From: Chryseobacterium sp. BLS98
GTDB taxonomy: Bacteria; Bacteroidota; Bacteroidia; Flavobacteriales; Weeksellaceae
Length of the DNA stretch: 64,000 bases
Assembly (NCBI RefSeq): GCF_001045445.1
Contig: NZ_LFNF01000001.1
Coordinates: 620,001 to 684,000, forward strand
Direction: 5' to 3'
The notes under the pieces: generated by a model
What the model was told of the DNA's origin: nothing
What the model saw: the letters and a program-made list of their open reading frames with translations, nothing else
Database searches by the model: none
Shown here: piece by piece, positions 23,621 through 43,095 of the stretch
How the letters are laid out: every line of letters starts with the position of its first letter
How positions within the stretch are numbered: position 1 is the stretch's first letter
Made by a program: the position numbers and the translations under genes

Positions 23621-24118
23621 TTATCTTCCGAAATCATCCTGTACCCTCACAATATCATCTTCATCCGAAGGATTTGAGGCATCGGTATGCTGCCATATTT
23701 CAGCCACTACACCCCAACCATCCAAACCTATCAGCCTGTGTCTTTCACCCTGCTGAAGCTTGATCTGATCTTTTGGGTGATATTCTTTCAGCTCGCCTTC
23801 TTCATCGGTATTGCTGGTTTTTATCCCAACGGTACCTTCCACAACCTGCCAGATCTCGGCTCTGCGGTGATGGTACTGCCAGCTTAAACGAGCGTTCGGG
23901 GCAACAAGAAGGATCTTCGGGCTCAATTTTCCACCTATTTTAAGGCTTTCTACATCAATCCCGTCAAAATACTGATTGGCAAAATTCTGCGCCTGGTTTT
24001 CATCAATCACGAAAAATCCCCCCCATGGCCTGGTATTATCTTTTGATGCAATAGTAAACCCCTGGGATTCAAGCACTTTTTCTATCTTATCGAATATTTC
24101 TGTTTTCTCTGCATTCAT
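23621..24118 (-). CDS. Mannose-6-phosphate isomerase-type cupin
   Basis: The 165-residue single cupin matches the isomerase domain of type II mannose-6-phosphate isomerases (PF01050): 'RPWGGFFVIDE' (30-40), 'LSWQYHHRRAEIWQVVEG' with metal-binding His, 'GERHRLIGLDGWGVVAEIWQ' and the ending 'DEDDIVRVQDDFGR', close to the usual EDDIVRxxDxYGR. It lacks the nucleotidyltransferase half. Annotation pipelines often name such proteins phosphoheptose isomerase. Beside a mannosidase and a sugar kinase gene, interconversion of mannose-6-P and fructose-6-P is the most sensible role. It is the last gene of the locus on this strand, with a terminator behind it. Confidence 0.75.
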   Translation of the reverse strand: MNAEKTEIFDKIEKVLESQGFTIASKDNTRPWGGFFVIDENQAQNFANQYFDGIDVESLKIGGKLSPKILLVAPNARLSWQYHHRRAEIWQVVEGTVGIKTSNTDEEGELKEYHPKDQIKLQQGERHRLIGLDGWGVVAEIWQHTDASNPSDEDDIVRVQDDFGR

Positions 24119-24167
24119 AAATTGTATTTCTTTCTAAATTATTTTTTAAATATAAAGGTTGTAATGA

Positions 24168-26438
24168 TTATTCTTTCGACATTGAATAAGGAAAATCTTT
24201 TTCCTGTGATCCTCTTTCTTTATTCGGTTTATTATCCATTTGGAAATCCAGTACGGCTCCATTCGTCAACTCTTTGTGGTTCAGCCAGTTTTTCGAATAT
24301 GATTGATTATTTACTTTCAATGACTTAACGTATAGATTTTCTGCACTGTTTTCCGCGGCATTTATTACAATTTTCTTGCCGTTTTCCAAATGGATTACAG
24401 CTTCTTTAAAAAGCGGCGCTCCCAAAACATATTGGTCTGTAGCTGGTGTTACGGGATAGAATCCTAAGGCAGAAAATACATACCACGCAGAAGTCTGGCC
24501 GTTATCTTCGTCCCCGCAATATCCATCCGGGGTTGCATAATAAAGCTTATCCATCACCTGTCTTGCCCAGTACTGCGTTTTGTATGGGGCACCTGCATAA
24601 TTGTACAGGTAAATCATATGTTGGATCGGCTGATTTCCGTGAGCATACTGTCCCATATTCATGATCTGCATTTCGCGGATCTCGTGAATCACACTTCCGT
24701 AATAGCTGTCATCAAATACCGGCGGAAGCGAGAATACTTCATCCAGTTTGGTTTCGAATTTCTTTTTTCCGCCCATCAACTGGGATAAACCGTCAATATC
24801 CTGGAAAACAGACCAGGTATAATGCCAGCTGTTTCCTTCGGTAAAAGCGTCACCCCATTTAAACGGATTGAATGGTGACTGAAATTTCCCATCCTTGTTT
24901 TTACCGCGCATCAGACCTGTTTGCGGATCAAACATATTTTTATAATTATACGCTCTTTTTTTATAAATATCAATTTCTGAAGCCGGTTTTCCCAATGCTT
25001 TTCCCAACTGATAAATGGCAAAATCATCGTAGGCATACTCCAGGGTTCTGGCAGCATTCTCATTAATCTTAACATCATAAGGAACGTAGCCTAAAGTATT
25101 GTAATATTCTACTCCTCTACGGCCTACAGCATCGATCGGGCCTTCATTATTGGCTCCGTGTTTTACAGCCTGCCAAAGAGTTTCTATATCGTATCCGCGA
25201 AGTCCTTTGATATAAGCATCCGCAACCACTGAAGCGGAATTGTTCCCAATCATAATATCAGAGTATCCGGGGCTGCTCCACTCCGGAAGAAATCCGCCTT
25301 CCTTATACGTATTGGCCAAACCTTCCTGCATTTCGACATTCATGCCCGGATACACAAGGTTCAGGAAAGGATAAAGAGCGCGGAAGGTATCCCAAAATCC
25401 GGTTCCTGCGAACATTTTCCCATCCAGGATTTTCCCGTTATAGGGGCTCCAGTGTTTTACTTTGTTCTGAGCATCAATCTCGTATAATTTCTGAGGAAAG
25501 AATAATGTCCTGTACAGCGAAGAATAAAAGGTCCTCATCTGCTGATCCGTACCACCTTTTACTTCAATTCTTCCCAGGGTTTTGTTCCAGATATTTTTTG
25601 CATCTGTTTTTACCTGTTCAAAATTCCTGCCTGCGATTTCCCTTTTAAGATTCAGTTCTGCCTGCTCGAAACTGATGAAAGAGGAAGCCGTTCTTGCATA
25701 AACGCTTTCTTTATTTTTTAATTTAAAACCAACAATTGCACCTGCGTGATCACTTGTGATTTCCAGCTGGTTTTTCACAAAAACACTGTCTTTCCAGGTG
25801 GTAGTCAAATCAAAATCCTTGTCAAACTGGACAACGAAATAGTTTTTGAAATTGTTATATTTCCCCCTGGAATATTTAGTGGTGTACCCAAGAATTTTTC
25901 TTTCTTTAGGAAGGATTTTGATGTAAGATCCTTTATTCAGTGCATCAATAACGATATAGGCGCTGTCTGTCTTAGGAAAATCAAATTTGAAGAAAGCTGC
26001 TCTTTCTGTAGGAGTAAGTTCTGTAGTCACATTAATGTCGGCCAGATAAACGCTGTAGCTGTAAGGCTTTGCCACCTCAGCTTTGTGGCTGAACCAACTT
26101 GCCCGTTCTTCCTCCTTAAATTTTAGTTTACCCACACCCGGCATGATCGCAAAAGCGCCGTAATCATTCATCCAGGGTGATGGCTGATGGGTTTGCTTAA
26201 AACCTTTTATTTTGTCTGCATCGTAGGTATATGCCCATCCGTCACCCATTTTCCCCGTTTGCGGAGTCCAGAGATTCATTCCCCAGGGAAGTCCTATAGC
26301 AGGATAGGTATTTCCATTGGACAAAGAAGGTTTGGACTGTGTTCCCATTAAAGGGTTCACATAATCGGCAAGAGATACTTGTTGGCCAAATGCCAAGATA
26401 TTGAATAGAATAAAAAAACTTGAGAATAAAGACTTCAT
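24168..26438 (-). CDS. GH92 alpha-mannosidase with Gln at the catalytic-acid position
   Basis: The 756-residue protein has a signal peptide (1-19), the GH92 N-terminal beta domain ('YVNPLMGTQ', 'THQPSPWMNDYG' at 83-94) and a C-terminal alpha/alpha barrel. The base region 'GDEDNGQTSAWYVFSALGF' (642-660) is intact. The usual acid motif G-[ND]-E-P reads 'GNQPIQHM', with Gln603 for Glu. In a Cellulosimicrobium GH92 the same change goes with cleavage of mannose-1-phospho-6-mannose, where phosphate leaves without acid help. It may therefore uncap phosphorylated fungal glycans. The second GH92 (33704-35944) keeps Glu. It is 4 bp after the ROK gene and is exported to the periplasm. Confidence 0.9.
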   Translation of the reverse strand: MKSLFSSFFILFNILAFGQQVSLADYVNPLMGTQSKPSLSNGNTYPAIGLPWGMNLWTPQTGKMGDGWAYTYDADKIKGFKQTHQPSPWMNDYGAFAIMPGVGKLKFKEEERASWFSHKAEVAKPYSYSVYLADINVTTELTPTERAAFFKFDFPKTDSAYIVIDALNKGSYIKILPKERKILGYTTKYSRGKYNNFKNYFVVQFDKDFDLTTTWKDSVFVKNQLEITSDHAGAIVGFKLKNKESVYARTASSFISFEQAELNLKREIAGRNFEQVKTDAKNIWNKTLGRIEVKGGTDQQMRTFYSSLYRTLFFPQKLYEIDAQNKVKHWSPYNGKILDGKMFAGTGFWDTFRALYPFLNLVYPGMNVEMQEGLANTYKEGGFLPEWSSPGYSDIMIGNNSASVVADAYIKGLRGYDIETLWQAVKHGANNEGPIDAVGRRGVEYYNTLGYVPYDVKINENAARTLEYAYDDFAIYQLGKALGKPASEIDIYKKRAYNYKNMFDPQTGLMRGKNKDGKFQSPFNPFKWGDAFTEGNSWHYTWSVFQDIDGLSQLMGGKKKFETKLDEVFSLPPVFDDSYYGSVIHEIREMQIMNMGQYAHGNQPIQHMIYLYNYAGAPYKTQYWARQVMDKLYYATPDGYCGDEDNGQTSAWYVFSALGFYPVTPATDQYVLGAPLFKEAVIHLENGKKIVINAAENSAENLYVKSLKVNNQSYSKNWLNHKELTNGAVLDFQMDNKPNKERGSQEKDFPYSMSKE

Positions 26439-26442
26439 GATA

Positions 26443-27318
26443 TCATTTTGTTAAATTGATCCTGGCTTTCTTCAAAGCATACCCTGCAGCACCAAGAATA
26501 GCCGCATCTTCAAAAATAGCAGAAATTTTAATAGGAAGATTGATTTTATGCTCTGCTAAGTGCTGATTTAACCTCCTTTTAAAGTAAGGATATATTTTTG
26601 CAATATTTCCGCCTATGACAAGTACTTCAGGATTGTAATCCTTTACGTATTTCACTATAAATTCGGCAAAGGAATCTGCATAGTCGTTAAATATTCTGGT
26701 TTGTATCTCTTCGGGCTGATCCAATAAATCTTTGGTTCCGGATATGGTTCCACCGGTCAAAGCAGCATACTGATTAACGAACCAGCGTGTTGCCAGGTAA
26801 TCTTCACAGATAGAATCTTTGAAAGGCGAGTCCCATAAATCTTCGTCCGAAGCTGTTTCTCCATTATAGAAAGCTGTTCCCAAACCTGTTCCAAGGGTTA
26901 CCCCAAAAATCTTATGATATTCCTGTACGCAACCGCCAAAAACTTCTCCTTCAAGAAAGGCTCCGGCGTCATTCACAAAATGAATCTGATCCGGGGAAAC
27001 TGAAAGTCTTTGGGCTAATTCTTCTTTAATATTAACTTTATAAATATCAATAAATTTTCCCTGCTGCATCAGCGATATTCCATTTTCATAATCGAAAGGG
27101 CCCGGCATGGCTATACCGATCAGAAGCTCATTTCTGACAAGATTATGGATCACCTTTTCAATGGCTGAAATCCAGGCAGAAAAAATGGTTTCCCGTGCCT
27201 CGAAGGAGTCAACATGTTCTCTTACATAGGTAGAACTGATAATTTCACGTTTTTCAGGATCAACCTGCGCCATGGTGATGTGCGAACCGCCGATGTCTAT
27301 TCCTACTATATTCTGCAT
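26443..27318 (-). CDS. ROK-family sugar kinase
   Basis: The 291-residue protein has the actin-like kinase fold: 'GIDIGGSHIT' (6-15, phosphate loop), 'GIAMPGPFDYENGI', 'FVNDAGAFLEGE' (catalytic Asp in ND) and 'GVTLGTGLGTAF'. The zinc motif CxCGxxGCxE of many ROK kinases is missing ('DSICEDYLATRWF' stands there), as in some Bacteroidota glucokinase-like members. There is no HTH, so it is a kinase and not a repressor. Within this locus it would phosphorylate released mannose or GlcNAc. It is cytosolic. It is 4 bp upstream of the first GH92 gene. Confidence 0.88.
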   Translation of the reverse strand: MQNIVGIDIGGSHITMAQVDPEKREIISSTYVREHVDSFEARETIFSAWISAIEKVIHNLVRNELLIGIAMPGPFDYENGISLMQQGKFIDIYKVNIKEELAQRLSVSPDQIHFVNDAGAFLEGEVFGGCVQEYHKIFGVTLGTGLGTAFYNGETASDEDLWDSPFKDSICEDYLATRWFVNQYAALTGGTISGTKDLLDQPEEIQTRIFNDYADSFAEFIVKYVKDYNPEVLVIGGNIAKIYPYFKRRLNQHLAEHKINLPIKISAIFEDAAILGAAGYALKKARINLTK

Positions 27319-27365
27319 TATATTCTTTCTTTATGTTCTGTAAATTATTCTTTTTCATTAAAAGA

Positions 27366-27398
27366 GACAGACAGGAAAGTAATGACTCCCCGTCTGCC
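27366..27398 (-). terminator. Possible terminator after the first endoglycosidase gene
   Basis: The arms gacagac (27366-27372) and gtctgcc (27392-27398) form a 7-bp stem with one G-T pair. On the minus strand a T-rich tail follows. It lies 58 bp past the GH18 stop, before the ROK gene. Confidence 0.4.
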
Positions 27399-27456
27399 AT
27401 CCTAAAATCCCCTAATTTTATTTTTACTTTTTATACGCCTTTTGAGGATTCAATTT

Positions 27457-29871
27457 TTATTCTATGATCACCTTCCCTGAAGATTTTATCTTACTGTCTT
27501 TTGAATTTATTTTATAGATATAAGTTCCTGCAGATAAATTCCCGGTACTGATCAGTATATCATTTTTATCAATTTTCCGGTTGATGATTAACTTTCCCGC
27601 CATATCATACAATGCAATTTCGCTGACTGTGTTATCTTTAATAGTAAAGTGAATATCATTTCCTTTTTTAACCGGATTGGGATAGGCAAAAACTGTATTA
27701 TTTTTTTCTGAATCAATATCTTTCGTGGAAAGCGCAACAGCACAGGCTACATCTGTTCTCCAGTTTGTCGCTGACATATTGACCAGAGTTGCAAAATGAG
27801 TATTTACCGTAGCGTCCAAAGCCCCGTTTCCGCTGCCTTCGTTCATTTTCCAGTTGGCTTCAAGATTGGGAGAGTTAGCCGGAACATTGCAATTATTAGC
27901 AAGAATTTCGGAAGACGTCAAGGCTCTTTTCCAAACTCTGAATTCATCCAGAAATCCGTTAAGGGTACGGGAATTGTCATAATTCCTGGCCAGATAAAGA
28001 ATCCCGTTGGCTGTAAAATTTCCGGAAGCCGCTACACTGGCATCAAGCACCCCGTTGATATAAATTTTCATGGTTGATCCATCGTAGGTTGCAGCTACGT
28101 GATTCCATGTATTAGTTGTCAATGCTGAAACACTGTTAAGTTTTACCTGAGCAGATCCGAAACTTAATATAAACTGCAGTTTGTTATTGGCCAGATTTCC
28201 GTCTCCAAACCTCAGCATTGCAGAATTACTATCGCCTACTTCAATTCCGATTACCGAGGAAATATAGGGAAATGCTGTTTTAAAAGCATTTACTTTTACC
28301 CAGCCTTCGAACGTTATGGCATTACCGCTAAGATTAAACTGCCCTGCATTCAGGTAGTTTGTGCTTCCGTTAAAAGAAAGAGATCTTGCCCCCGGGCTCT
28401 GAACAGGTGTAAAGCCACTGTTGAAAGAGGCATCAGCAGTATATGAACTGCTGTTTGTTGCGCTGCATACTGCCTGTACTCTCCAGACATAATTGGTATT
28501 TTCCGTTAATCCGGAAAGTGTATAGTAAGTTGAAGAGATATTCTGAACATCAATCCAGGTGCTTGCAGCAGCTGTTTTGTACTGCAGATTGTATGAAGAT
28601 GCCCCTGGTACAATATCCCAGGACACTTTTGTTGTAGCTCCCAAAAAGCCCTCAGATTTTACTCCGGACGGCGTGGCGCACCCGTTTCCCGAATTAAATC
28701 TCGGGGCAAAAATGTAAGTACTTTTTAGTGTTGCCGAGCAGTTAGACTGTATTCTCCAGTCATAGTCTGTATTTAGAGTGAGGTTATTAACTGTGATATT
28801 GCTTCCTGTATAGTTGCTTGCAATATTGGTCCAGGTGGTTGAATTAGCCGGTTTATAATCAATATTATAAGTCTGTGAGCCATTGACTGTCCAGTTTAGT
28901 TTGGCTGAAGTACCTGTAATATTTGTAGCTTCAAGTCCCAGTGGCGGATTACAGGTATCTCCCTGTGTCCAGGAGTAAAGAGGACCGGTAAGCAGCGTAT
29001 TTTCAGTGTAGAGAATATTTGATCCTGTACTCAGGTAACTTGCATTGTCAACTCCATTAAGATCGTACCACATGAATACGCCGTAACCATCATTTTTGGT
29101 ATTGGTTGCCAGCGTGGTAAGTGTAGCGGCAGAAGTGGATTGAGGGTTAGAATTGCGGATCCATGTAGCCGCAGCCGAAAGCTTGGCATTGGTAAGAGGC
29201 GGTACTGAAGGTGCACTGTAAGTTCCATAGTAAGGATTCCAACTGTAATTGATATAATTTCCGGCTGCATCACCGTTGTAGCTTTGTCTTGACGTTGCGG
29301 GCCCCAGGTAATAAAAAGTGATTAATTTATCCGGCATTGCAGCTTTGAGTTCCTGTAAAAGCATTACAAAAGAACTGGAGTTGGGCTGCCCGGTTCCGTT
29401 GTTTCCATAGTCTGCATATTCGTCATCCAGATCAATACCATCCAGACCGTAAGTGTACACTGTATGTGCAAGCTGCAGGGCAAAATCTTTTGCGGCTTCC
29501 CTGTTCGGGAAATTTGAAATTCCGGCTCCCTGATGGTTTCCGAGGATGTCCAGAAGTACCTTAATTCCTTTTTGCTGCAGAGGTCTTACATAAGTGTTCA
29601 CATCATTCAACACTTTTGTCACGTTATTGTTATTGGCAATGTAAGCCCTGTTTTTGGAGACATCATAATTGATATTGGCAGCAAAAATAATGGCAACATC
29701 AAAAAGCTGCCTGTTCGTATTCTGCAAAGTATACGATCCTGCATTCAGCATATTATTATTGTTCACTTCTACATAGCAGACTCCCACAGGATTGAGCTGC
29801 TGGGCTTTAAGTATGGATGCCCCTTGAACGACCAGTAAGATCAGGGCGGTAAGAATAGATTTTTTTTTCAT
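27457..29871 (-). CDS. Secreted GH18 endo-beta-N-acetylglucosaminidase, two FN3 domains, LamG and T9SS tail
   Basis: The 804-residue protein begins with a signal peptide (about 1-23). The GH18 domain (about 27-300) aligns by eye with Endo F1/H: 'FAANINYD', 'KGIKVLLDILGNHQGAGISN' and the catalytic 'DGIDLDDE' (144-151, acid Glu151). Two fibronectin-III domains (about 305-395, 398-485), a LamG-like lectin domain (about 495-670) and a type A T9SS sorting domain (about 725-804) follow. It should cut between the two core GlcNAc of high-mannose N-glycans at the cell surface or outside the cell. The next gene upstream is a paralogue with one FN3 domain. Confidence 0.9.
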   Translation of the reverse strand: MKKKSILTALILLVVQGASILKAQQLNPVGVCYVEVNNNNMLNAGSYTLQNTNRQLFDVAIIFAANINYDVSKNRAYIANNNNVTKVLNDVNTYVRPLQQKGIKVLLDILGNHQGAGISNFPNREAAKDFALQLAHTVYTYGLDGIDLDDEYADYGNNGTGQPNSSSFVMLLQELKAAMPDKLITFYYLGPATSRQSYNGDAAGNYINYSWNPYYGTYSAPSVPPLTNAKLSAAATWIRNSNPQSTSAATLTTLATNTKNDGYGVFMWYDLNGVDNASYLSTGSNILYTENTLLTGPLYSWTQGDTCNPPLGLEATNITGTSAKLNWTVNGSQTYNIDYKPANSTTWTNIASNYTGSNITVNNLTLNTDYDWRIQSNCSATLKSTYIFAPRFNSGNGCATPSGVKSEGFLGATTKVSWDIVPGASSYNLQYKTAAASTWIDVQNISSTYYTLSGLTENTNYVWRVQAVCSATNSSSYTADASFNSGFTPVQSPGARSLSFNGSTNYLNAGQFNLSGNAITFEGWVKVNAFKTAFPYISSVIGIEVGDSNSAMLRFGDGNLANNKLQFILSFGSAQVKLNSVSALTTNTWNHVAATYDGSTMKIYINGVLDASVAASGNFTANGILYLARNYDNSRTLNGFLDEFRVWKRALTSSEILANNCNVPANSPNLEANWKMNEGSGNGALDATVNTHFATLVNMSATNWRTDVACAVALSTKDIDSEKNNTVFAYPNPVKKGNDIHFTIKDNTVSEIALYDMAGKLIINRKIDKNDILISTGNLSAGTYIYKINSKDSKIKSSGKVIIE

Positions 29872-29916: not shown

Positions 29917-29926
29917 ATGGTGATTC

Positions 29927-32062
29927 TTATTTTATAATTAATTTTTCAGTCTGCTTAAGGCTTCCGTTCTGAGATTCAAATTGAATAATATAATTTCCTT
30001 CTTTAAGCCTTGAAAGGTCATACTGCTGATCTCCTGTATTGATTGTTTGTGTTTCCAGAGGATTACCGGTAAGGCTATATACCGTTAGTTTTCCTTTGTT
30101 ATATTCTTCCGGAACTGAAACTGTAAATGGTGAAGATTTGCTTGCAGGGTTCGGGTATAATTTCACCTGCTTTTTAGCTGTAACCTCTTCCAGGATTGTT
30201 GCATTTTGATTTCTTGCTGCCGCAGAGCCTGCCGGACATGGTATATCTGTTCCCCAGTTGGACGCATCCACTCCCGTTAATGTCAGAGTAATTCCGTTTC
30301 CTGAGCTGTCCTGAACAGATGAACCGCTTCCTTCGTTAAATTTCCAGTAAGCGGCAAGAGAAGTCGCCGGAAGTGTGACATTGCACATATTCTGGCTGAT
30401 TTCTGTCTGACTTAATGCTCTTTTCCAAACACGTACCTCATCTACTTTACCATTGAAATTCCTTGATGTATTATACAAATATCCTACATTGAATGCTCCA
30501 TTAGAGTTCACACTTCCCGTCTGGGATTTGCTTGCATCAAGAACTCCATTGATATAAATTTTCATTGATGAGCCATCATAGGTTGCCGCAACATGATACC
30601 ATGTATTGGCATTCAAAGCTGTATTGGCAGTTAGTTTTTGCTGTACATTATTGATACTTACCACAAACTGAAGCTTATTGTTGGCAATATTGGCATCGCC
30701 CAGTCTTAAAAACGCAGAATTGCTGTCGCTTACCTCCGTTCCCCAAAGAGACGAAATATAAGGTGATGCAGATTTAAAAGAAGATGGTTTTATCCAGCCT
30801 TCCATTGATAATGCAGATCCGCTTAGATTAATGTTTCCCGCTGCACCTGATTCTGTGCTTCCGTCAAGTGAAAGAGAAGTGGATCCCGAAGGAGCTGTTC
30901 CTGTCCCGCTGTTGAATCTCGGGGCAAACATATAGGTACTTTTTACACTGCAATTGGTTCTGATTCTCCAGTCGTATTCCGTATTGGCTGTTAATCCTGA
31001 GATGGTTACGGAAGTAGCAGTGGTAGCTGTTGCAGCGTTCGTCCATGTAGCAGAAGTAGCAAGCTTATAATCTACATCATAGGTGCTGGTTCCTACTGCT
31101 GACCAGTTTAATTTTGCACTTGTTCCTGTAAGGTTACTTGTAAATAATCCGATCGGGGCATCACAATTGGTTCCCTGCGTCCATGACTGTAAAGCAGTGC
31201 TTAAGATAGTCTGTTCTCCGTATAATGTCTGTGTTCCGGCTGAAAGCTGTGATGTTTCATTGGTTCCGTGGAGGTCATACCACATAAATACTCCGTATCC
31301 GCCATTCTTCGTCTGGGTAGCCAGGCTGGTTGTAGTGGAATTGGAAGTATTTCCAAGCCATACGGCTGCCGGAGAAATCTGTGCATTGGTAAGAGGCGGT
31401 ACGTTTGGTGCAGAGAAAGTTCCATAATTGGCATTCCAGCTGTAGTTGACATAATCTCCCACTCTGAGTCCGTTCCATGAAAGTCTTGAAGCTGCCGGAC
31501 CATAATAATAAAAAGTAATCATTTTATCCGGCAATAGGGCCTTTAATTCCTGTACAAGCATCACAAAAGAACTTGTATTGGGCTGGCCGGTGCCGTTTTG
31601 TCCGTAATCCGAATATTCATCGTCAAAGTCGATTCCGTCCAGACCATAAGTATTTACAGTATGGGCAAGCTGTTGGGCAAAATCTCTCGCCGATTCACGG
31701 GTCGGAAAATTACAAATACCTGCTCCCTGATGGTTCCCCAAAATAGTCAGCACTACCTTCATCCCTTTTGCCTGAAGGGGCTTTATGTAGGTATCTGCAT
31801 TGGTGAGCACTTTTGTAACGTTATTGTTACAGTACAGGTAAGGTCTGCCTCTGCCCGTATCATAATTGATATTGGCGGCAAAAATATTGACGACATTAAA
31901 CAAATATTTACCTGATGTCTGCAGTTTGTATGAACCGGCATTCAGGATATTATTGTTGTTTACCTCCACATAGCATATTCCCGTAGGATTAAGCTGCTGC
32001 GCATTCAGCACAGGAATTGCATGAATGATCATTACGATCAACATAGTAATGGCTTTTTTCAT
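29927..32062 (-). CDS. Secreted GH18 endo-beta-N-acetylglucosaminidase, one FN3 domain, LamG and T9SS tail
   Basis: This 711-residue paralogue of the gene at 27457 has a signal peptide (about 1-21), GH18 with 'DGIDFDDE' (142-149, acid Glu149) and 'LTILGNHQGAGICNFP', one FN3 domain (about 305-395), a LamG-like domain (about 410-590) and a type A T9SS tail. It lacks the second FN3 domain. The ATG at 32062 was chosen over 32116 because the 18 upstream residues are charged and not signal-like. The two copies are in tandem, so one arose by duplication. They may differ in glycan or protein preference, a point not visible in sequence. Confidence 0.9.
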   Translation of the reverse strand: MKKAITMLIVMIIHAIPVLNAQQLNPTGICYVEVNNNNILNAGSYKLQTSGKYLFNVVNIFAANINYDTGRGRPYLYCNNNVTKVLTNADTYIKPLQAKGMKVVLTILGNHQGAGICNFPTRESARDFAQQLAHTVNTYGLDGIDFDDEYSDYGQNGTGQPNTSSFVMLVQELKALLPDKMITFYYYGPAASRLSWNGLRVGDYVNYSWNANYGTFSAPNVPPLTNAQISPAAVWLGNTSNSTTTSLATQTKNGGYGVFMWYDLHGTNETSQLSAGTQTLYGEQTILSTALQSWTQGTNCDAPIGLFTSNLTGTSAKLNWSAVGTSTYDVDYKLATSATWTNAATATTATSVTISGLTANTEYDWRIRTNCSVKSTYMFAPRFNSGTGTAPSGSTSLSLDGSTESGAAGNINLSGSALSMEGWIKPSSFKSASPYISSLWGTEVSDSNSAFLRLGDANIANNKLQFVVSINNVQQKLTANTALNANTWYHVAATYDGSSMKIYINGVLDASKSQTGSVNSNGAFNVGYLYNTSRNFNGKVDEVRVWKRALSQTEISQNMCNVTLPATSLAAYWKFNEGSGSSVQDSSGNGITLTLTGVDASNWGTDIPCPAGSAAARNQNATILEEVTAKKQVKLYPNPASKSSPFTVSVPEEYNKGKLTVYSLTGNPLETQTINTGDQQYDLSRLKEGNYIIQFESQNGSLKQTEKLIIK

Positions 32063-32243
32063 AATGTTTTTTTTAAGTTGTTTAATGTATTTATATCTAT
32101 TCATCCTCTCCGGCAATGAAGAAAATGACCAGCTGCTGGCCGAAAAATTTCATACGGAACTCCTTCAATGAAATTTTTGTAAAACACTGAAACTAAAAAA
32201 ACGGGAATAAAGGGTATGCTGCTACCTGCTGCAAATATCGAAT

Positions 32244-33671
32244 CTAAGTCAGTAAATCCTGATTCTCGTTAAAGGTTTTCCATAACAATTCTCCAAATAA
32301 TGTATTGGCCCAGGCAAACCATTCTCTGGTAAATTTTTTATCGTTATCCTTGTGGAAGGATTCATGCATAAATCCTGTTCCGCCATGGGTTTTCTGTAAT
32401 GTTTCTATGCACCATCTGATCTCCTTCTTATCGTTGGAAGTAAGCGCTTTCATGATGATACTCATCGGCCAGATCATATCAAGCCCAATATGTGGTCCGC
32501 CGATTCCTTCCGCCAGCTTTCCTTTGAAGAAAAACGGGTTGTCCTTTGACCAGACGTATTTCCTGGTATTCAGATAAACGGGATCGTCTGCTTTTACCGC
32601 ATCCAGATAGGGTAATCCAAGCAGGCTCGGACAGTTGGCATCATCCATCAGGTTGTAGCTTCCAAATCCGTTGGTTTCAAAAGCGTATATTTTTCCATGT
32701 TGCGGATGATCATAGATTCCATATTTTTTAATGGCCGCATCCACCTCATCGGCAAGGCTATTCAGCTGCTGAGCCAGCTTCTGGTCATTCTTGATCTTTG
32801 AAACCATTTCTGCTGCCTGGCGTAAACTTATAACAGCAAATAAATTGGATGGTATGAGAAAAGCATAGATGGTCGCATCATCACTTGGACGGAACATGGA
32901 ATTGATCAATCCAACAGGGTTTGTTGGGTAGCCGTAGCCTCCCATCGGAATTCCGTCTGTAGCCCAGGCTGTGGTACGCTCGAATTTGTATGGCCCCAAG
33001 TCTGTTTTCCTCTGCTGTTCTTTAAAAGTCTGTAGAGTAAGCTTGATACCTTGTAACCAATTGCTGTCAAACGGTTTTGTATCCCCTGTTGTTTTCCAGA
33101 AGTGATAGGCCAGACGGATAGGATAGCAAAGTGAATCTATTTCCCATTTTCTTTCATGGATGCCGGGTTTCATATCCGTATGATCATATTCTTTCCATTT
33201 GCTTATTTTGTTTTCATCGTTATAAAAAGCATTGGCATATGGATCTTTCAGAATGAATTCTGTCTGTTTGTGAATAACTCCCGAGATCAGTCTGTGAAGT
33301 TTTTCATCTTTTTTTGAGAACTGCAGATAAGGAAAAACCTGTGCAGAGCTGTCACGAAGCCACATGGCATCAATATCTCCTGTAATAACATAAGTATCCG
33401 GAGCTCCATTTATTTCTTTATAAAAAACAGTGGTATCTAAAGTATTGGGAAAACAGTTTTCGAAGAGCCAGACAAGTTCTTTATTTTTTACTTTCTTTTT
33501 AAAGGCCGAAATTGCATTTTCTACCGCTTCACTGGTAAAATGTCTTTTATCTTTAGGAACGCGGACAACAGGGAAATCTTTCGTACCCAGCGTTTTTGCA
33601 AAAACATTCTGAGTAAAGAATAATCCAGCTCCAGCCAGTGCACTTGTCTTTATAAAGTTTCTCCTTTCCAT
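32244..33671 (-). CDS. GH125 exo-alpha-1,6-mannosidase
   Basis: The 475-residue protein has a Tat-like signal ('ERRNFIKTSALAGAG') and the (alpha/alpha)6 barrel of GH125: 'DIDAMWLRDSSAQVFPYL' (99-116), 'WEIDSLCYPIRLAYHFW' (176-192, acid Asp179 by motif), 'ERTTAWATDGIPMGGYGYPTN' and 'GTGFMHESFHKD' with a probable base Glu437. GH125 enzymes remove alpha-1,6-mannose without a metal. This would remove the alpha-1,6 arm of the N-glycan core after GH92 enzymes trim alpha-1,2 and alpha-1,3 residues. It is periplasmic, 32 bp after the GH92 gene. Confidence 0.92.
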   Translation of the reverse strand: MERRNFIKTSALAGAGLFFTQNVFAKTLGTKDFPVVRVPKDKRHFTSEAVENAISAFKKKVKNKELVWLFENCFPNTLDTTVFYKEINGAPDTYVITGDIDAMWLRDSSAQVFPYLQFSKKDEKLHRLISGVIHKQTEFILKDPYANAFYNDENKISKWKEYDHTDMKPGIHERKWEIDSLCYPIRLAYHFWKTTGDTKPFDSNWLQGIKLTLQTFKEQQRKTDLGPYKFERTTAWATDGIPMGGYGYPTNPVGLINSMFRPSDDATIYAFLIPSNLFAVISLRQAAEMVSKIKNDQKLAQQLNSLADEVDAAIKKYGIYDHPQHGKIYAFETNGFGSYNLMDDANCPSLLGLPYLDAVKADDPVYLNTRKYVWSKDNPFFFKGKLAEGIGGPHIGLDMIWPMSIIMKALTSNDKKEIRWCIETLQKTHGGTGFMHESFHKDNDKKFTREWFAWANTLFGELLWKTFNENQDLLT

Positions 33672-35938: not shown

Positions 35939-36066
35939 AATCATAATACGGAAATCTTAAAAATCCTTCAAGATAGGAGTTTATTTAACAATACAAAAAC
36001 CTCAACCATGATTTCAACAAGAGGAAAAATAAAGTTGACGGGCATATTTCACAGGTTTTAATCAGT

Positions 36067-37038
36067 TTAAAGCGAATTCTTCTTCATAAAATCAATGATT
36101 TCTGAAATATATCCAAATGCAATAGCTACAACGGTATCCGCCGCGCCATAATAGACTGTTACCTTATCCCCTTCTGAAAGTGCCGCACACGGGAATACCA
36201 CATTCGGAATATCTCCTGTAAGCTCATACAATTCAGCCGGAGCCAGTAAGTAAGGTTTTGTTCTGTACAATACTTTTGACGGATCTTCAAGATCCAGTAA
36301 TGATGCTCCCATAGAATAACGGAAACCTCTGCAGGTATTGATCACACCATGATAGAAAAGCAGCCATCCTTCTTCTGTTTTGATAGGAACAGGTCCAGCC
36401 CCGATTTTGGTACATTGCCATGCGCTGTCTTCAAACGGAGCCACTTTCATCACACATCTGTGCTCGCCCCAGTATTTCATATCCGGGCTGTAGCTGATGT
36501 AAATATCTCCGAAAGGGGTATGGCCATTATCACTTGGCCTGCTCAGCATGGCATATTTACCATTTATTTTTTCAGGAAAAAGAACTCCGTTTCTGTTGAA
36601 GGGCAGGAATGCATTTTCGCACTGAAAGAATTCTTTAAAATCAAAAGTATAGGCAATTCCGATCGTTGGACCGTGGTATCCGTTGCACCATGTGATCCAG
36701 TAGCGGTCTTCTATAAAGGCAACACGGGGATCGTATTTATAATCGGATTCTATCATTTCGGTATTTCCAGCTTTCATATCGATAGGATCGTGATTGATTT
36801 CCCAATTGATCCCATCCTTACTGAAACCTGCAAAAATATTCATCTGCACTGCTTTGTTGTCGCAACGGAAAACTCCTGCGAACCCGTCCTCAAAAGGAAC
36901 TACTGCACTATTGAAAATGCTGTTGGAGGTAGGGATCGCATATCTGTTGATGATCGGATTTGCAGAGTAACGCCACATAATATCATGGCTGTCTTCCGGA
37001 CGATCCTGCCAAGGGATCTTTGCTGGTTGAAATGTCAT
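36067..37038 (-). CDS. GH130 mannoside phosphorylase (Man-beta-1,4-GlcNAc type likely)
   Basis: The 323-residue five-bladed propeller has no signal peptide and is therefore cytosolic. '[22 protein letters not shown]' near 99-120 carries the catalytic Asp103. '[20 protein letters not shown]' holds phosphate-binding residues and '[14 protein letters not shown]' is a family ending. GH130 enzymes phosphorolyse beta-1,4-mannosides to mannose-1-phosphate. In an N-glycan locus the substrate is probably Man-beta-1,4-GlcNAc left by endoglycosidase and alpha-mannosidases (subfamily GH130_2); that specificity is inferred from context. It is beside the MFS carrier gene. Confidence 0.9.
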
Positions 37039-37079
37039 AAAGTATTTTTACTTTTTATTTAATGTATTTGATAAATGAT

Positions 37080-38372
37080 TTAGTGTTCTTTTGGTTGTTC
37101 AGGATACGAGAATGGAACAAGCATTGTTACGACAAATGCCGGTATGGTAGCAATCAGAACCCAGATAAAAAACATTTTGTAGCCTACCCAATCGCTGATC
37201 ATCCCGCTGAACATCCCGGGGATCATCACCCCAAGATTCATTATACCGGTAGCAAAGGCGTAATGAGCAGTTTTGTGCTCGCCGGGTGCAATTTGCTGCA
37301 TGATATACAACATCAGGCCTACAAACCCGAATCCATAGCCAAAATACTCCACAACGACCGCAATACCCACCGGGAGCAGCTCTGACGGCTGAAAATGAGC
37401 CAGTAGTGCATAGACCACAAATGGAATATTAAAAGCAGAGCACAACCAGATCAATGATCTTTTCAATCCTCTTGCCGCAATGAAATAGCCGGCCAGCACG
37501 GATCCTAAAATAAATGCCGCTGAGCCGTAAGTTCCGTAAATAAGTCCTATATCTGAAGTGGATAATCCAAGCCCTCCCGATGTCCTCGGCGCTTTAAAAA
37601 ACAAGGGGGCAATCTTTATCGCAAATCCTTCTGCAAAACGGTAGAGAATAATAAAGAGTACTGCCCACAGGATATTCTTTTTTCTGAAGAAAGAAGTAAT
37701 AACCTCCAACAGCTCTTTACGGATATTCCGTGTTTTTCTGGCTTCCCTTTGCTCATCCTTTTTATTTTCTTTAGGCAAAACAGCATAATGATAAATGGCC
37801 AGAAGAAAAAATAGAAGACCATAAATTCCCATAATGATCATCCATGCATTGGTAACTCCTTTTGTTTTCTCCAGAACTCCTGCGAAATAGACCAGAACTC
37901 CACTGCTTATAATTTTTGCCAGATTGTAGAAAGCACCCTGCCAACCGATATATTTTGCCTGCTCCTTATTTGTCAGAAAATTGATATAAGTTCCGTCTGC
38001 TGCTATATCGTGTGTAGCACCGCAAAATGCAACAACAGCAAAAAGGGCAATGCTGTACCTGAAGAAGTCCTGCATCGGTAAGCTTAAAGCAATTAACGCA
38101 AATAGAATCCCTATGGCAAACTGGGTGGCTACAACAAAAAACTTCTTTGTTTTATAGATCTCCAGGAAAGGGCTCCAAAAAGGCTTCAATGTCCAGGAAA
38201 ACATAATCAGGGCAGTCCAGAATGTAATTCTGGAATCTGAAATCCCCATATCTTTGTACATGATCCCGGAAACTGCATTAATGGTTACAAAGGGAATTCC
38301 CATTGCAAAATATAATGTTGATATCCAGAATATCGGTTTCACCGACTGTGTTTCAGAATTGTTGCTTCCCAT
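37080..38372 (-). CDS. MFS transporter, probably for mannosyl-GlcNAc
   Basis: The 430-residue protein has 12 hydrophobic helices with a charged central loop (about 195-225, 'KENKKDEQREARKTRNIRKE'). 'KPFWSPFLEIYKTKKFFVVA' is like the loop of AmpG/PAT-type carriers. It should carry the final disaccharide or mannose across the inner membrane to the GH130 phosphorylase and ROK kinase. Placement between SusD and GH130 genes supports this. It is separated from susD by 183 bp that hold an inverted repeat, so it may have reduced or separate transcription. Confidence 0.88.
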   Translation of the reverse strand: MGSNNSETQSVKPIFWISTLYFAMGIPFVTINAVSGIMYKDMGISDSRITFWTALIMFSWTLKPFWSPFLEIYKTKKFFVVATQFAIGILFALIALSLPMQDFFRYSIALFAVVAFCGATHDIAADGTYINFLTNKEQAKYIGWQGAFYNLAKIISSGVLVYFAGVLEKTKGVTNAWMIIMGIYGLLFFLLAIYHYAVLPKENKKDEQREARKTRNIRKELLEVITSFFRKKNILWAVLFIILYRFAEGFAIKIAPLFFKAPRTSGGLGLSTSDIGLIYGTYGSAAFILGSVLAGYFIAARGLKRSLIWLCSAFNIPFVVYALLAHFQPSELLPVGIAVVVEYFGYGFGFVGLMLYIMQQIAPGEHKTAHYAFATGIMNLGVMIPGMFSGMISDWVGYKMFFIWVLIATIPAFVVTMLVPFSYPEQPKEH

Positions 38373-38390
38373 GTTTAAACTAAATATTAA

Positions 38391-38535
38391 AGAAAAAGAG
38401 AGCCTCCCAAAAGCATCATTCCGAATTGAAACGAAACTAAAATTGAAGAACCTAAACTAACGTGTATCAGAAATTTCTTCTACCGGAATGAAAAATCAAA
38501 TTAAATCTAACTTTTGAGACGGCCTCTTTATCTTT
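38391..38535. repeat. Long imperfect inverted repeat between susD and the MFS gene
   Basis: The arms 38391-38413 and 38511-38533 match as reverse complements at 18 of 23 positions. An inner pair (attccg near 38419 and cggaat near 38484) nests inside. Transcribed RNA from either strand could fold. It may act as a weak terminator or mRNA stabiliser that separates SusCD from the downstream enzymes, or be a resident repeat. Confidence 0.5.
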
Positions 38536-38555
38536 ATACTGATCTGCTAAAATTA

Positions 38556-40184
38556 TTACTTTTTATCCCACCATAGCTTGGTTCCCCCTGTATCAGGCCC
38601 TCCAAGGTACTGCAATGCTTGAGCATAGTTCAGGGTATTGTTTCTGTATTTGGTCGGAATAGGAACTCTTCTGATCATAGCATCGGTGCTGATGGTTCCC
38701 TGACTGTCATTGAGAACGTTTTTGAAAATAACAGGATAACCGGTTCTTCTCTGTTCTGCCCATGCCTCGGATCCGTCAGGATAAATAGCGATCCATTTCT
38801 GGGTCATAATTCTTTCTAATTTTCTTTCAAAAGAATCTCCTTCATTCCATTTAATAGTAATGGTGCTTAGCATTGGGTTTCCTGCTAAAATACTGTTTGA
38901 TGCATTTTTAGGATCAATATAGGGAGCTTCCTTAGAAACGGCATCTGCCACATAAGTAGCATAAGATGCACTTTTCCCCCATTCTGCAAATGACATTTCG
39001 ATACCTTTGTTGTAGTTTGTTCCTGCATCTCCTGCTCCGGCATACCCTCTAATGGCGGCTTCCGCTTTCAGGAACCATATTTCCGCAGCAGTAAATACTT
39101 TATTTTTACCATTGCTATTGGAAAAATAATCTCCATTGGCAGATGCTGCGATAGGCTGGGAGAAGTCTCCATATCTGTCTTTACTTCCTCCCATATCAAC
39201 TCCCTGTCTTATTCCGATATACTGTCCGGCTACACTAGGATCGGTGGCAGGTTTTGCATAAGCAGATCTTCTCGGATCATTAAATCCGTTCATAAATGCC
39301 ATTAATGGTGCCCCTATTTTACAGTCGCCCCAGGAATAAATAATATCGCTGAGAGGAGAAGCTCCTCCATAGTTAATCAGTGCATTTGCAGAATTGTCAT
39401 CAATAAGCCCCACAGGAGATGCCAAAGCCTGTTCTGCATACGATCTTGATTTGGCAGGATCGGCATAACTTATTCTCATTGCAAATCTTAATTTTAAGGA
39501 ATTGGCAAGTTTTGCCCAGTTGGCCAGGTTACCGCCATATATAAGGTCCGATTTGGTAATAACTGCCTTATCTTCAACACCCGGAGTCTGCTGCAGGTCT
39601 GAAATTGCAGAACTAAGGTCTGCAATGAAATTGTTATAAGCTTCCTGCTGTGAATCGAAATCCGTAATTCCCGTTGTAGGATTAGGTGTTTCAAATTTAC
39701 TGTAAATGATGGGTCCGTGTGCATCTGAGACTTTACTTGCAGAGATTACTTTAAGAATTTTTGCAACAGCAAGAGATGCCTTAAAATTGATACCCGGATA
39801 GTTTTCTTTGATCACATTGTTAATTGTCTTTGACTTGTCAAAAACATCTTCCAGCTGCGTCATCATAATCCTTTCATTCCATCCGTCCATTATGAAATAA
39901 GTGGTGTTATTTCTCCCTCCATTATAAGGGGTAGCTGTACTGAATAAGCCACTAAACATATCCGCGTTAAGGTTGGTCTGTAGCTGATAGATCCAGTTGG
40001 TAGAACTTTGCTGGTTTCTCTGCATCAATTTCAGGGGATTTACAATCTGGGTGAAATCGGCATTGAAATTTTCAGGACCTCCAATGTACTCCTGGTTATA
40101 TTTATCAAATTCGCCCGTGCAGCCTAAAGCAGCAAATAGCATACATGCACTGAGTGAAATGGTTTTAATATGAGATATTTTCAT
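38556..40184 (-). CDS. SusD/RagB-family glycan-binding lipoprotein
   Basis: The 542-residue surface lipoprotein has a lipobox with Cys22 ('FAALGC'). The body is the helical SusD-like fold with TPR-like repeats (the SusD-like_2 form), with 'LKLRFAMRISYADP' near 225 and 'ERIMTQKWIAIYPDGSEAWAEQRRTGYP' near 465, both typical. It sits 10 bp after susC and caps the SusC channel, binding glycan for TonB-driven import. No separate surface glycan-binding protein gene follows, unlike many Bacteroides loci. Confidence 0.94.
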   Translation of the reverse strand: MKISHIKTISLSACMLFAALGCTGEFDKYNQEYIGGPENFNADFTQIVNPLKLMQRNQQSSTNWIYQLQTNLNADMFSGLFSTATPYNGGRNNTTYFIMDGWNERIMMTQLEDVFDKSKTINNVIKENYPGINFKASLAVAKILKVISASKVSDAHGPIIYSKFETPNPTTGITDFDSQQEAYNNFIADLSSAISDLQQTPGVEDKAVITKSDLIYGGNLANWAKLANSLKLRFAMRISYADPAKSRSYAEQALASPVGLIDDNSANALINYGGASPLSDIIYSWGDCKIGAPLMAFMNGFNDPRRSAYAKPATDPSVAGQYIGIRQGVDMGGSKDRYGDFSQPIAASANGDYFSNSNGKNKVFTAAEIWFLKAEAAIRGYAGAGDAGTNYNKGIEMSFAEWGKSASYATYVADAVSKEAPYIDPKNASNSILAGNPMLSTITIKWNEGDSFERKLERIMTQKWIAIYPDGSEAWAEQRRTGYPVIFKNVLNDSQGTISTDAMIRRVPIPTKYRNNTLNYAQALQYLGGPDTGGTKLWWDKK

Positions 40185-40194
40185 TTTGTTAAAA

Positions 40195-43095
40195 TTAGAA
40201 GTTAGCTTTTAATGACAGACCAACTGATCTGGTAATCGGCATTCCAAACATATCGATACCTACACCTCCAGGATTAACTCCTGATACTTGTTCAGGATCG
40301 AATGGAGCGTCTTTATATAAGAAAAACAGGTTGCTTCCGATTAAGCTTATTGTTGCATTTTCCATATATTTTGAATGTACACCAAACGTGTATGAAATAG
40401 AAGCCTGTCTCAAACGCACGGCTGTCGCTTTATACATGTATGGTTCATCAATAGATCCTGATACTTTAGAATAGTATTTTTCAGCATCAGTCAATCCTGT
40501 ATAAGGAGTACCGTTTTCGTAAACTGCATTTGGAATGGATACTCCTCCGTTATCACGGGCATCTGCGCTGGCCTTGCTTACCCCATACTGATCATTTTTA
40601 GCCTGGGTGTAGCCTAATACTTTTCCACCAAATTTTCCGTCAATAAGGAAACTGATTCCCAGTTTTCCGATATTGAATGAGTTGTTGAAGCCAAGGATGA
40701 ATTTAGGGTTTGGATTTCCAAGGTACTGAACCTGGTTCTCATCCCTTAACGGAACTCCGTCTGCATCCACAATGATTCTTCCCTGACCGTCTCTTTTGAA
40801 TACTGATCCATAAATATCACCGAAGGAACCTCCTACTTTTAATCTGTTATATCCTCCTCCTGTAAGCACAAAGGTTTTGTCTGCAGGAATCTGTAATCTG
40901 GATGGGAAAAGTTCTTTAATGGTATTTTTATTGGCGGAAGCATTTATTGTAGTTGTCCAGTCAAATTTGCTTCCCGCAAATACTTTATAAGATAAGCTGG
41001 ATTCAAATCCTACATTCTGAATTTTTCCGGCATTAACATCAAATCTTCCGGTTCCGAATCCTAAGTTGGAAGATATTTCCACTGCCTGCAAAAGCTGGTT
41101 GGATACTACTGAATTATAGTAAGTGAAGTCAAAGCTTAAACGGTTATTTAAAAGTTTAAGTTCTGTTCCTGCCTCAAAAGTTTTGTTAAGTTCCGGTTTC
41201 GCAAAGAGTTCAGAAAATTCCGGATTGGTAACCGGTGATGAATTAGGAGTAATCATAGTTCCTGCATTTACCTGATAACGGTAAATATTAGGAGCTGTCA
41301 GGTTGGAATACAATCCGTTTCCAACTTCTGCATAGGAAGCTCTCACTTTCCAGAAATTGATGGATTCTGAAATATTAAAGATTTCTGATAAGATGGCATT
41401 GAAACCAATCGATTCATAATCAAAAGAAACTCTGCCGGTTCCCGACAGCGTTGAATCCCAGTCATTTCTGAAGGTAAGATCCAGATATAAGAATTTTTTA
41501 TATCCTAAGTTAGCACTGGCAAAGACGGACTGGGTCTGTTTTTTTGTTCTGTATATTACATAACTCACTCCATTTCCGTTCTGGCCTGGCCATTGTAAAT
41601 TATTCAATTCAAACAGGTTAGGAATTACCAAAAGATTATTCTCTAAACTACTTGATGAATATCTTTGTGTATTTATACTCCCGCCCACCGTAAAATCCAA
41701 AGAAATATCATCAGTAATTTTCGGGCTTCCGATTAATAATGCGTCGCCGTAAGTAGATGTACTTTCAATTACATCTTTGTAAATCTTACCATTATCATTT
41801 CCACCTAACAAAACAGGCAACGAATAAACTGCTACATTACGCTGGCTGTCTGAGGTAGTATAATTGTAATTTCCTCTTACCCTGGCCGATAGCCAAGGAT
41901 TGATCTGATAGCTCAATGTCGCTGCACTGTAAAGATTTTTATTCTTTGTTGTCACAGGGTTTTTATAAAGAATCCAATATGGGTTTTGAGATTCCACGCT
42001 AAAGCTTCCGTCCGGTTTTATGGCCCACCAGTTCTGTGCAGGAAGCAGTCTGTTATTATTTTGATATGCATATTTTGAACCGCTGAACTGATCGAAATCA
42101 ACACCTCTCGGTAACCAATACAGGTTTACAAGCGGGGAGTAATAGGAACCCGGAGTCAGCCTGTTTTTGCTGTTTTGTAACGATCCCATGAAGTTAGCAT
42201 CAAGTGTCAGCTTATCATCAAGGAATTTACTTGAATTCCTGAAATTAATATTATACTGATCAAATACTGATGTAGGAATAATTCCTTTATTTGTCGTATT
42301 CCCTATAGAGAAAAAGTTATTGGACTTTTCATTTCCTGACTGGAATGAAAGGTTGTTAACCCATGTAGTCCCGGTCTGTAAAAAATCTTTCAGATAATCT
42401 TTTGAAGCTCCTTTTGGACCCCAGCTCTGTTGGGAACCTGTTTGTCCTGTATTAGGATCATAAGGAATAGTCTGAAGATAGCTGTGTTGCAGTTCAGGCA
42501 GGCTATAGGCCTGATCAAGAGTTAAACTTGTTGTATAAGATAATTTACTTCTACCTGCTTTTCCTTTTTTCGTTACAATCAAAACGGCACCGTTACCTCC
42601 CGCAGCACCGTATAATGCCGCCGCTGAAGCACCTTTAAGGAAATTGATGCTTTCAATGTCTTCAGGATTGATTGTACTTAAAACATCTCCGGTATCCGGC
42701 ATGGAAGCAAAAAAGTCTACATTGGGTCCCTTTGTATTGTTAATGATAGGAATCCCATCAATCACATATAACGGCTGGCTGTTTCTTGTAGATTTATCCC
42801 CTCTCATCACCACCCTCACGGATCCTCCTACACCACCATTGGTTTTATTAATCTGCACATTGGAAACTTTTCCGTTGATTGAATTCAAAAGATTGGGTGT
42901 TTTTACTTCTGTAAGCTCATCCCCTCCAATCTGCTGGCTGGAGTACGTTAAGGACCGTACCTGCCTTTTTATCCCCAAAGAAGTAACAACCACCTCTTCT
43001 ATTTTGGTTGTTTTAGCAGTATCTGCCTTTTTTGTTTCCTGTGCGTAGGCAGATAAAGAAATAGCTAATAAAACCGGTATAACAGTTTTTCTCAT
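40195..43095 (-). CDS. SusC/RagA TonB-linked outer-membrane importer
   Basis: The 966-residue protein has a signal peptide (about 1-18), a TonB-box-like 'IEEVVVTSLG' (32-41), a plug with 'QPLYVIDGIPI' and 'FLKGASAAALYGAAGGNGAVLI', and a C-terminal barrel ending in Phe. The usual N-terminal CarboxypepD-like domain of SusC proteins is absent; the box follows the signal almost at once. With SusD it should import high-mannose glycan in an energy-dependent way. It heads the locus, about 400 bp from an AraC-type regulator gene. Confidence 0.95.
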   Translation of the reverse strand: MRKTVIPVLLAISLSAYAQETKKADTAKTTKIEEVVVTSLGIKRQVRSLTYSSQQIGGDELTEVKTPNLLNSINGKVSNVQINKTNGGVGGSVRVVMRGDKSTRNSQPLYVIDGIPIINNTKGPNVDFFASMPDTGDVLSTINPEDIESINFLKGASAAALYGAAGGNGAVLIVTKKGKAGRSKLSYTTSLTLDQAYSLPELQHSYLQTIPYDPNTGQTGSQQSWGPKGASKDYLKDFLQTGTTWVNNLSFQSGNEKSNNFFSIGNTTNKGIIPTSVFDQYNINFRNSSKFLDDKLTLDANFMGSLQNSKNRLTPGSYYSPLVNLYWLPRGVDFDQFSGSKYAYQNNNRLLPAQNWWAIKPDGSFSVESQNPYWILYKNPVTTKNKNLYSAATLSYQINPWLSARVRGNYNYTTSDSQRNVAVYSLPVLLGGNDNGKIYKDVIESTSTYGDALLIGSPKITDDISLDFTVGGSINTQRYSSSSLENNLLVIPNLFELNNLQWPGQNGNGVSYVIYRTKKQTQSVFASANLGYKKFLYLDLTFRNDWDSTLSGTGRVSFDYESIGFNAILSEIFNISESINFWKVRASYAEVGNGLYSNLTAPNIYRYQVNAGTMITPNSSPVTNPEFSELFAKPELNKTFEAGTELKLLNNRLSFDFTYYNSVVSNQLLQAVEISSNLGFGTGRFDVNAGKIQNVGFESSLSYKVFAGSKFDWTTTINASANKNTIKELFPSRLQIPADKTFVLTGGGYNRLKVGGSFGDIYGSVFKRDGQGRIIVDADGVPLRDENQVQYLGNPNPKFILGFNNSFNIGKLGISFLIDGKFGGKVLGYTQAKNDQYGVSKASADARDNGGVSIPNAVYENGTPYTGLTDAEKYYSKVSGSIDEPYMYKATAVRLRQASISYTFGVHSKYMENATISLIGSNLFFLYKDAPFDPEQVSGVNPGGVGIDMFGMPITRSVGLSLKANF

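Follow-up and report, generated by a model that had tools for sequence, protein, structure and literature searches.

Which glycan would be taken apart by a run of eleven genes in Chryseobacterium sp. BLS98, and how much of the way from glycoprotein to sugar phosphate would their products cover? The genes occupy positions 23621-43095 of the window, that is, of the whole 64-kb stretch of DNA that was analyzed (C1:620001-684000 of a 4.41-Mb genome). They encode, in this order, SusC, SusD, a carrier of the major facilitator superfamily (MFS), the glycoside hydrolase (GH) family members GH130, GH92a, GH125, GH18a, and GH18b, a ROK kinase, GH92b, and a cupin. An initial annotation, made from the sequence alone, had named these genes and placed them on one strand; all eleven open reading frames (ORFs) are indeed on the minus strand and Pfam and NCBIfam assign a family to 11 out of 11 proteins. 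The families, their order, the closeness to characterized enzymes, and the conservation in 30 Chryseobacterium loci were computed, and the close characterized relatives and the conserved gene order support the initial annotation in its choice of substrate class and in its assignment of compartments. The set is very probably a polysaccharide-utilization locus (PUL) for the high-mannose N-glycans of glycoproteins, with an estimated probability of about 0.85.

From these data we infer the substrate, the transport steps, the regulation by an AraC-type protein, and the sugar of the kinase. In the proposed route, the two exported endo-H-type GH18 enzymes would cleave the chitobiose core outside the cell and the freed Man5-9GlcNAc (GlcNAc, N-acetylglucosamine; Man, mannose) would enter the periplasm through SusC/SusD, where alpha-1,2-mannose would be trimmed by GH92b and alpha-1,6-mannose by GH125. 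Man-beta-1,4-GlcNAc would be carried into the cytosol by the MFS carrier and split there by GH130 with phosphate into mannose-1-phosphate and GlcNAc, and the ROK kinase and the cupin would channel the sugar phosphates into glycolysis. The combination of Endo H type enzymes, alpha-1,2- and alpha-1,6-mannosidases, and a Man-GlcNAc phosphorylase argues for a high-mannose N-glycan as the substrate. The locus contains no beta-mannosidase and no GH20, as had been stated, and this fits the route since GH130 would take the beta-mannoside and high-mannose glycans have no antennary GlcNAc. A single locus would thus cover the greater part of the path between glycoprotein and sugar phosphate, in a bacterium other than the gut Bacteroides from which this path is known.

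Enzymes, transporters and their conservation

Both GH18 proteins combine an endo-H-type endoglycosidase domain with accessory domains and a sorting tail of the type IX secretion system (T9SS): GH18a (29927-32062, 711 amino acids from an ATG) contains FN3 and LamG, and GH18b (27457-29871, 804 amino acids) contains two FN3 and LamG. They pass the cut-off of 300 bits of NF045482 (Endoglyc_H) with 397 and 378 bits, and their type A tails score 39.7 and 48.6 bits against TIGR04183 (cut-off 23). SprA, a core part of the T9SS and the component that was searched for, is encoded in the genome (2056 bits), and the predicted T9SS secretion of both endoglycosidases therefore stands. The nearest solved structure is Endo H for GH18a (306 bits, query without the last 17 residues) and for GH18b (286 bits, 6ve1), and GH18b scores 139 bits against Endo F1 and 117 bits against BT3987. 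Judged by sequence only, both are exported endoglycosidases of the high-mannose type. The DxDDE motif is present in all 53 GH18 sequences from the window and the 30 Chryseobacterium loci, and a midpoint-rooted tree of these sequences falls into a group of 25 (support 1.0) and a group of 28 (support 0.71), so that the duplication seems to predate the species compared. NF045482 was over its cut-off in 3 out of 295 genomes sampled from the class, the own genome included (a second sample of 296 genomes was drawn from the family), and endo-H-type GH18 enzymes therefore look rare in the class; they may plausibly have been acquired by horizontal transfer. The predicted secretion of the endoglycosidases, into the medium or onto the cell surface, had been pointed out as a difference from Bacteroides, in which they are lipoproteins, and is one. 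It is not unprecedented, since Endo F1 of Elizabethkingia was reportedly purified from culture filtrate.

The periplasmic steps are assigned to close relatives of characterized enzymes. GH92b (24168-26438, 756 amino acids) matches the alpha-1,2-mannosidase BT3990 with 1113 bits over 732 residues, nearly its full length, and in the alignment with BT3990 it retains the acid Glu534, the bases Asp643/Asp645, and the pair His585-Glu586. A His-Glu pair sets alpha-1,2 specificity in GH92 according to the parts of the literature that describe the roles of the residues (PMC5930347, PMC5215778), and GH92b is accordingly predicted to be an alpha-1,2-specific enzyme of the BT3990 type. A reading of GH92b as an enzyme without general acid, derived from its GNQPIQH segment, was rejected: BT3990 shares this stretch, and the actual acid, also present in GH92b, is the Glu within FTEGNSW. 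GH125 (32244-33671, 475 amino acids; PF06824, 572 bits) is a predicted exo-alpha-1,6-mannosidase with 3p2c (600 bits), 3on6, and BT3781 (589 bits) as its nearest solved chains.

GH130 (36067-37038, 323 amino acids) is probably a phosphorylase of Man-beta-1,4-GlcNAc. It matches Uhgb_MP (4udg) with 501 bits over 316 residues and contains the equivalent of Asp104; none of the NCBIfam GH130 models was over its cut-off for this protein (best 199 of 550 bits). Among the best 80 of 579 relatives, it is 99% identical to the protein of Chryseobacterium oranimense and of five other Chryseobacterium records. The MFS carrier (37080-38372, 430 amino acids) is AmpG-like (MFS_1, 89.7 bits; TIGR00901, 144 bits and under the cut-off of 350) and a candidate importer of Man-beta-1,4-GlcNAc. 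SusC (40195-43095, 966 amino acids) is a TonB-dependent transporter (TIGR04056, 491 bits, cut-off 368) and SusD (38556-40184, 542 amino acids; PF12741, 480 bits) carries a lipobox. A gene for an AraC-family protein (43493-44371, 292 amino acids; HTH_18, 64.5 bits), the probable regulator, lies upstream of SusC on the same strand and outside the 23621-43095 span.

The lipobox and the leaders were judged by eye from the N-termini. Leaders of the Sec type are present on GH92a, GH92b, and GH18b. GH18a is listed with a TTG start at 32116 and has such a leader if translation begins at the ATG at 32062 instead; the ATG, with its clean leader, is likelier. Unlike both GH92 proteins, GH125 carries a leader of the twin-arginine type (MERRNFIK...). 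No leader was seen on GH130, the ROK kinase, or the cupin, and the distribution of signal peptides agrees with the one described in the initial annotation, for GH18a with the ATG start.

Gene order in related genomes, for which the initial annotation had proposed a search, was compared in 30 Chryseobacterium loci and 50 loci from other genera that were fetched by GH130 (best 80 of 579 relatives). AraC, SusC, SusD, MFS, GH130, GH92a, and GH125 are present in the same order in all 30 Chryseobacterium loci and GH18 comes next in each of them, with two copies in 23 and one copy in 7. The ROK gene was found in 26 out of 30; the 10-kb flank stops within GH18b in the remaining loci (L008, L011, L030, and L031). 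The position of the cupin is beyond most of these flanks. The order is not invariant, as 5 out of 30 loci carry an insert of 775-784 codons between GH125 and GH18 and one (L014) has an additional frame of 445 codons between GH18 and ROK. Among the 50 loci from other genera, some of them on short contigs, 19 have the MFS gene directly upstream of GH130, 28 at least one GH92, and 3 a GH125 (a weak GH18 match in L071, 32% over a fifth, was excluded from the counts). GH92a occurs in two further genera, one of which (L154) has the set with one GH18. The locus is common to a large part of the genus and follows an ordinary plan with variant enzymes. Searches of the open-licence PMC literature returned no report of an N-glycan locus from Chryseobacterium.

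The transporter genes vary in a way of their own. The identities of SusC and SusD are correlated (0.98 over 351 locus pairs) and the neighboring genes do not diverge with this pair (38556-43095); L006 and L010, for example, share 98% in four flanking proteins, 61.5% in SusC, and 60.6% in SusD. This looks like a cassette exchange of the pair or diversifying selection, and BLASTN of three locus pairs did not display sharp breakpoints at both SusCD ends in all three. Between SusD and MFS (38373-38555) lies a palindromic element with ends that resemble an insertion-sequence repeat. The left end also occurs in L005 and L008 and a right end occurs in L011; the remaining 27 Chryseobacterium loci lack the motif that was searched.

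A GH92 protein with serine at the general-acid position

The initial annotation had counted two GH92 mannosidases, which holds for GH92b and is questionable for GH92a (33704-35944, 746 amino acids). Assigned by GH92 profile and alignment, GH92a has Ser548 at the position of the general-acid Glu (Glu533 in BT3990) and keeps Asp651 as the base; the corresponding residues of BT3130 are Glu535 and Asp637 according to a passage in PMC5930347. In an alignment from which ORFs of 600 amino acids or fewer and alignments of 400 residues or fewer were excluded, all 32 GH92a rows have Ser at this position and all 55 other GH92 rows, this genome's other GH92 included, have Glu (the window's GH92a is present a second time in the 32 rows as L003, and GH92b in the 55 as L002). 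Orthologues of GH92a, defined by at least 80% identity, were counted in 86 out of 296 genomes of the family, 84 of them within the genus and one each in two further genera. A DNA pattern of the motif that allows Ser, Thr, Cys, Arg, or Trp at the acid codon matched once each in 84 of the 296 genomes and every match spells Ser. The two orthologues outside the pattern (G141 and G177) keep Ser and have one neighboring change each. The position is thus Ser in 86 out of 86 orthologues and the Glu that serves as general acid in GH92 in none.

The remainder of the active site appears intact, as the general base Asp651 and the residues of the -1 mannose site are retained in all 32 rows. The ratio of nonsynonymous to synonymous substitution rates (dN/dS) is 0.016-0.022 in seven comparisons of GH92a, a rough value since dS is above 1 in all but one of them and partly near saturation, and 0.007-0.018 for GH130 and 0.028-0.044 for GH125. 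Judging by this ratio, the GH92a gene is not decaying. The nearest solved proteins by sequence are BT3130 (590 bits), BT3965 (536 bits), and 7zgm (516 bits), with a likely alpha-1,3 linkage for BT3130 in the consulted part of PMC5930347, alpha-1,4 for BT3965, and alpha-1,3 for 7zgm, a mannosidase of plant N-glycans. The fold of the predicted model (pLDDT 85, pTM 0.89) matches BT3130 (Z 47.4), 7zgm (Z 47.1), and the alpha-1,2 enzyme BT3990 (Z 46.3) in a near tie across linkages, and the fold alone therefore does not set the linkage of GH92a.

GH92a may cleave a bond that needs no protonation of the leaving group (e.g., in a mannosyl-phosphate), may only bind mannose, or may use another acid. 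A non-catalytic mannose binder, a pseudoenzyme that retains glycan in the periplasm for instance, is a possible though rather unlikely alternative: the general acid is replaced in every orthologue, the conserved -1 residues would be expected in a binder too, and acid mutants are described as inactive for AnGH92A (in part of PMC12858847) and the acid variants Ala/Gln of BT3990 as substantially impaired (in part of PMC10167667). A general base would be superfluous for binding alone and is nevertheless kept in 32 out of 32 rows, and the dN/dS lies between those of GH130 and GH125, although binders can be conserved as well. An explanation of about the same likelihood is that GH92a is an ordinary alpha-1,3- or alpha-1,4-mannosidase that takes its acid from elsewhere, in line with the linkages of its nearest solved relatives. 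Asp555, seven residues past Ser548, might be that acid since it is present in 32 out of 32 GH92a rows and 0 out of 55 other GH92 rows; by sequence, however, it would be about two helix turns off, we know of no GH92 with a relocated acid, and the near tie of alpha-1,3 and alpha-1,2 enzymes among the fold matches counts against this explanation as well. CcMan5, a GH92 enzyme of Cellulosimicrobium, presumably carries Gln where the acid would stand. CcMan5 acts on a phosphate leaving group, removing mannose from Man-PO4-Man (described in a portion of PMC5930347), and shares the GH92 fold with GH92a (Z 36.9), although it is the remotest GH92 in the structure list of GH92a (26%). It is conceivable, if rather doubtful, that GH92a belongs to an acid-less GH92 branch that removes mannose from Man-alpha-PO4-Man on fungal N-glycans, in which case the locus would be tuned to phosphomannosylated fungal glycoproteins and the decapping chemistry seen in CcMan5 would have arisen a second time in GH92a, fixed beside N-glycan genes in three genera. 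With the acid lost throughout and the rest of the active site retained, GH92a could turn out to be either a new enzyme that decaps mannosyl-phosphate or a pseudoenzyme that binds glycans.

Fungal glycans also enter into a different reading of the whole locus, by which it would target fungal alpha-mannan, the outer chains of cell-wall mannoproteins, instead of N-glycan cores and the endo-H-type enzymes would merely free the mannan from protein. Enzymes of this type also cut fungal high-mannose chains, and an acid-less GH92 would suit mannosyl-phosphate caps. GH92 and GH125 are part of the yeast-mannan route in the portion of PMC10154615 consulted, but the same route uses GH76, GH99, and GH38, none of which is found among the locus proteins. 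GH130, moreover, reaches 501 bits with the Man-beta-1,4-GlcNAc type, compared with 51 bits for the model of beta-1,2-mannosidases (cut-off 550), and the alpha-mannan reading is considered improbable beside that of a locus for high-mannose N-glycans.

The cytosolic end and the points against the route

The cupin (23621-24118, 165 amino acids) is a stand-alone protein of the mannose-6-phosphate isomerase (PMI) type and the one place in the genome that exceeds the PF01050 cut-off (43.5 bits, cut-off 23.6; the second place reaches 21.5 bits). No type I PMI was found in the genome with a profile that matches 7 out of 14 control genomes (other kinds, e.g., a bifunctional phosphoglucose isomerase/PMI, were not searched). 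Together, these two results make the cupin the strongest candidate for the mannose-6-phosphate isomerase of this bacterium. The ROK protein (26443-27318, 291 amino acids) is a divergent sugar kinase (PF00480, 61 bits) with a ROK/hexokinase fold, for which an N-acetylmannosamine kinase and a ROK hexokinase are the top structural matches within 1 Z of each other (best Z 27.6). A second, ordinary ROK is encoded elsewhere in the genome.

Several observations weigh against a high-mannose N-glycan locus that is complete and expressed as one unit. Neither a surface glycan-binding protein nor a free-mannose importer is encoded in the locus, and it has no clear alpha-1,3-mannosidase. GH92a is near BT3130, BT3965, and 7zgm, but the alpha-1,3 step within the locus is doubtful because the general acid is missing from every orthologue read. 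L153, from a related genus, has the set without a GH18 match. A strong terminator-like hairpin (27398-27366) lies between GH18b and ROK and may divide the locus into two transcription units, and the sole -7 box of the Bacteroidota type that was found upstream of SusC has no -33 partner. Profile searches of the genome found no NagA (25.3 of 225.65 bits) and no NagB (54.7 of 236.9 bits) over cut-off. Finally, the NagB-like fusion protein of some relatives, described below, was not found in the window's genome by a search with the L153 protein, nor in G051 and 17 out of 30 Chryseobacterium genomes. In view of the NagA and NagB results, the statement of the initial annotation that every step to fructose-6-phosphate has a candidate enzyme holds for mannose at most. 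Matches to sigma-70-like promoters displayed no excess over chance. A second terminator-like hairpin (43434-43459) is located between AraC and SusC.

The place with 54.7 bits to NagB is a protein of 236 amino acids that matches PF01182 (glucosamine isomerase/6-phosphogluconolactonase family) with 228.5 bits and is taken to be the lactonase. In sister loci, the insert between GH125 and GH18 (L008, L011, L015, L030, and L031; 14799-17138 in L008) is a NagB-like gene, and L153 carries one between ROK and GH125 (9054-11378). The first half of the NagB-like protein scores 170.7-191.6 bits against its best model (cut-off 384), and the protein of L153 has a weak match to a PIG-L de-N-acetylase (21.8 bits, cut-off 28.2); the fusion may convert GlcNAc-6-phosphate to fructose-6-phosphate without NagA. 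Its location beside the set in these five loci and next to ROK in L153 hints at GlcNAc as the sugar of the kinase. When the L153 protein was searched in 33 genomes (the window's and 32 others, of which 14 matched), proteins of this type with 75-77% identity were found in 8 out of 30 Chryseobacterium genomes, in three of these not within the fetched locus, and 6 out of 30 have a remote protein of NagB type that is shorter, at about 660 residues, with both types in one genome. The presence in 8 out of 30 genomes and the absence here indicate, as far as these searches go, that the GlcNAc branch is an optional part that some species have and this one does not.

Elsewhere in the window, a gene convergent with the locus (20602-23286) encodes a TonB-dependent receptor that contains, close to the N-terminus, a heavy-metal-associated domain (HMA), and no RNA families or tRNA were found within the 64 kb.

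Comparison with known systems

Individual proteins of the locus resemble those of distant systems. The GH18 proteins share 286-306 bits across the catalytic domain, the DxDDE motif, and the Asn and His segments of the high-mannose site with Endo H of Streptomyces plicatus and differ from it by the added FN3, LamG, and T9SS tail and by the Bacteroidota host; GH130 matches Uhgb_MP with 501 bits and retains the catalytic Asp.

As a whole, the locus can be compared with PUL72 of Bacteroides thetaiotaomicron (BT3983-BT3994), with which it has in common SusC/SusD, an exported high-mannose GH18, and a BT3990-type GH92, following the parts of PMC11180146 and PMC7021837 that describe PUL72. The two differ in their endoglycosidases (two T9SS-tailed endo-H-type GH18 here, BT3987 in PUL72), in the use of a GH125 for the alpha-1,6 step here, and in their regulators, an AraC-type protein here and an extracytoplasmic function (ECF) sigma factor in PUL72, with no ECF sigma/anti-sigma system in the present locus. 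The role of alpha-1,3-mannosidase belongs to BT3991 in PUL72; the doubtful candidate for it here would be GH92a, a GH92 without the general acid. PUL72 stops at a trisaccharide that is processed elsewhere (as stated in a section of PMC11180146), whereas the Chryseobacterium locus includes GH130, the MFS carrier, the kinase, and the PMI-type cupin.

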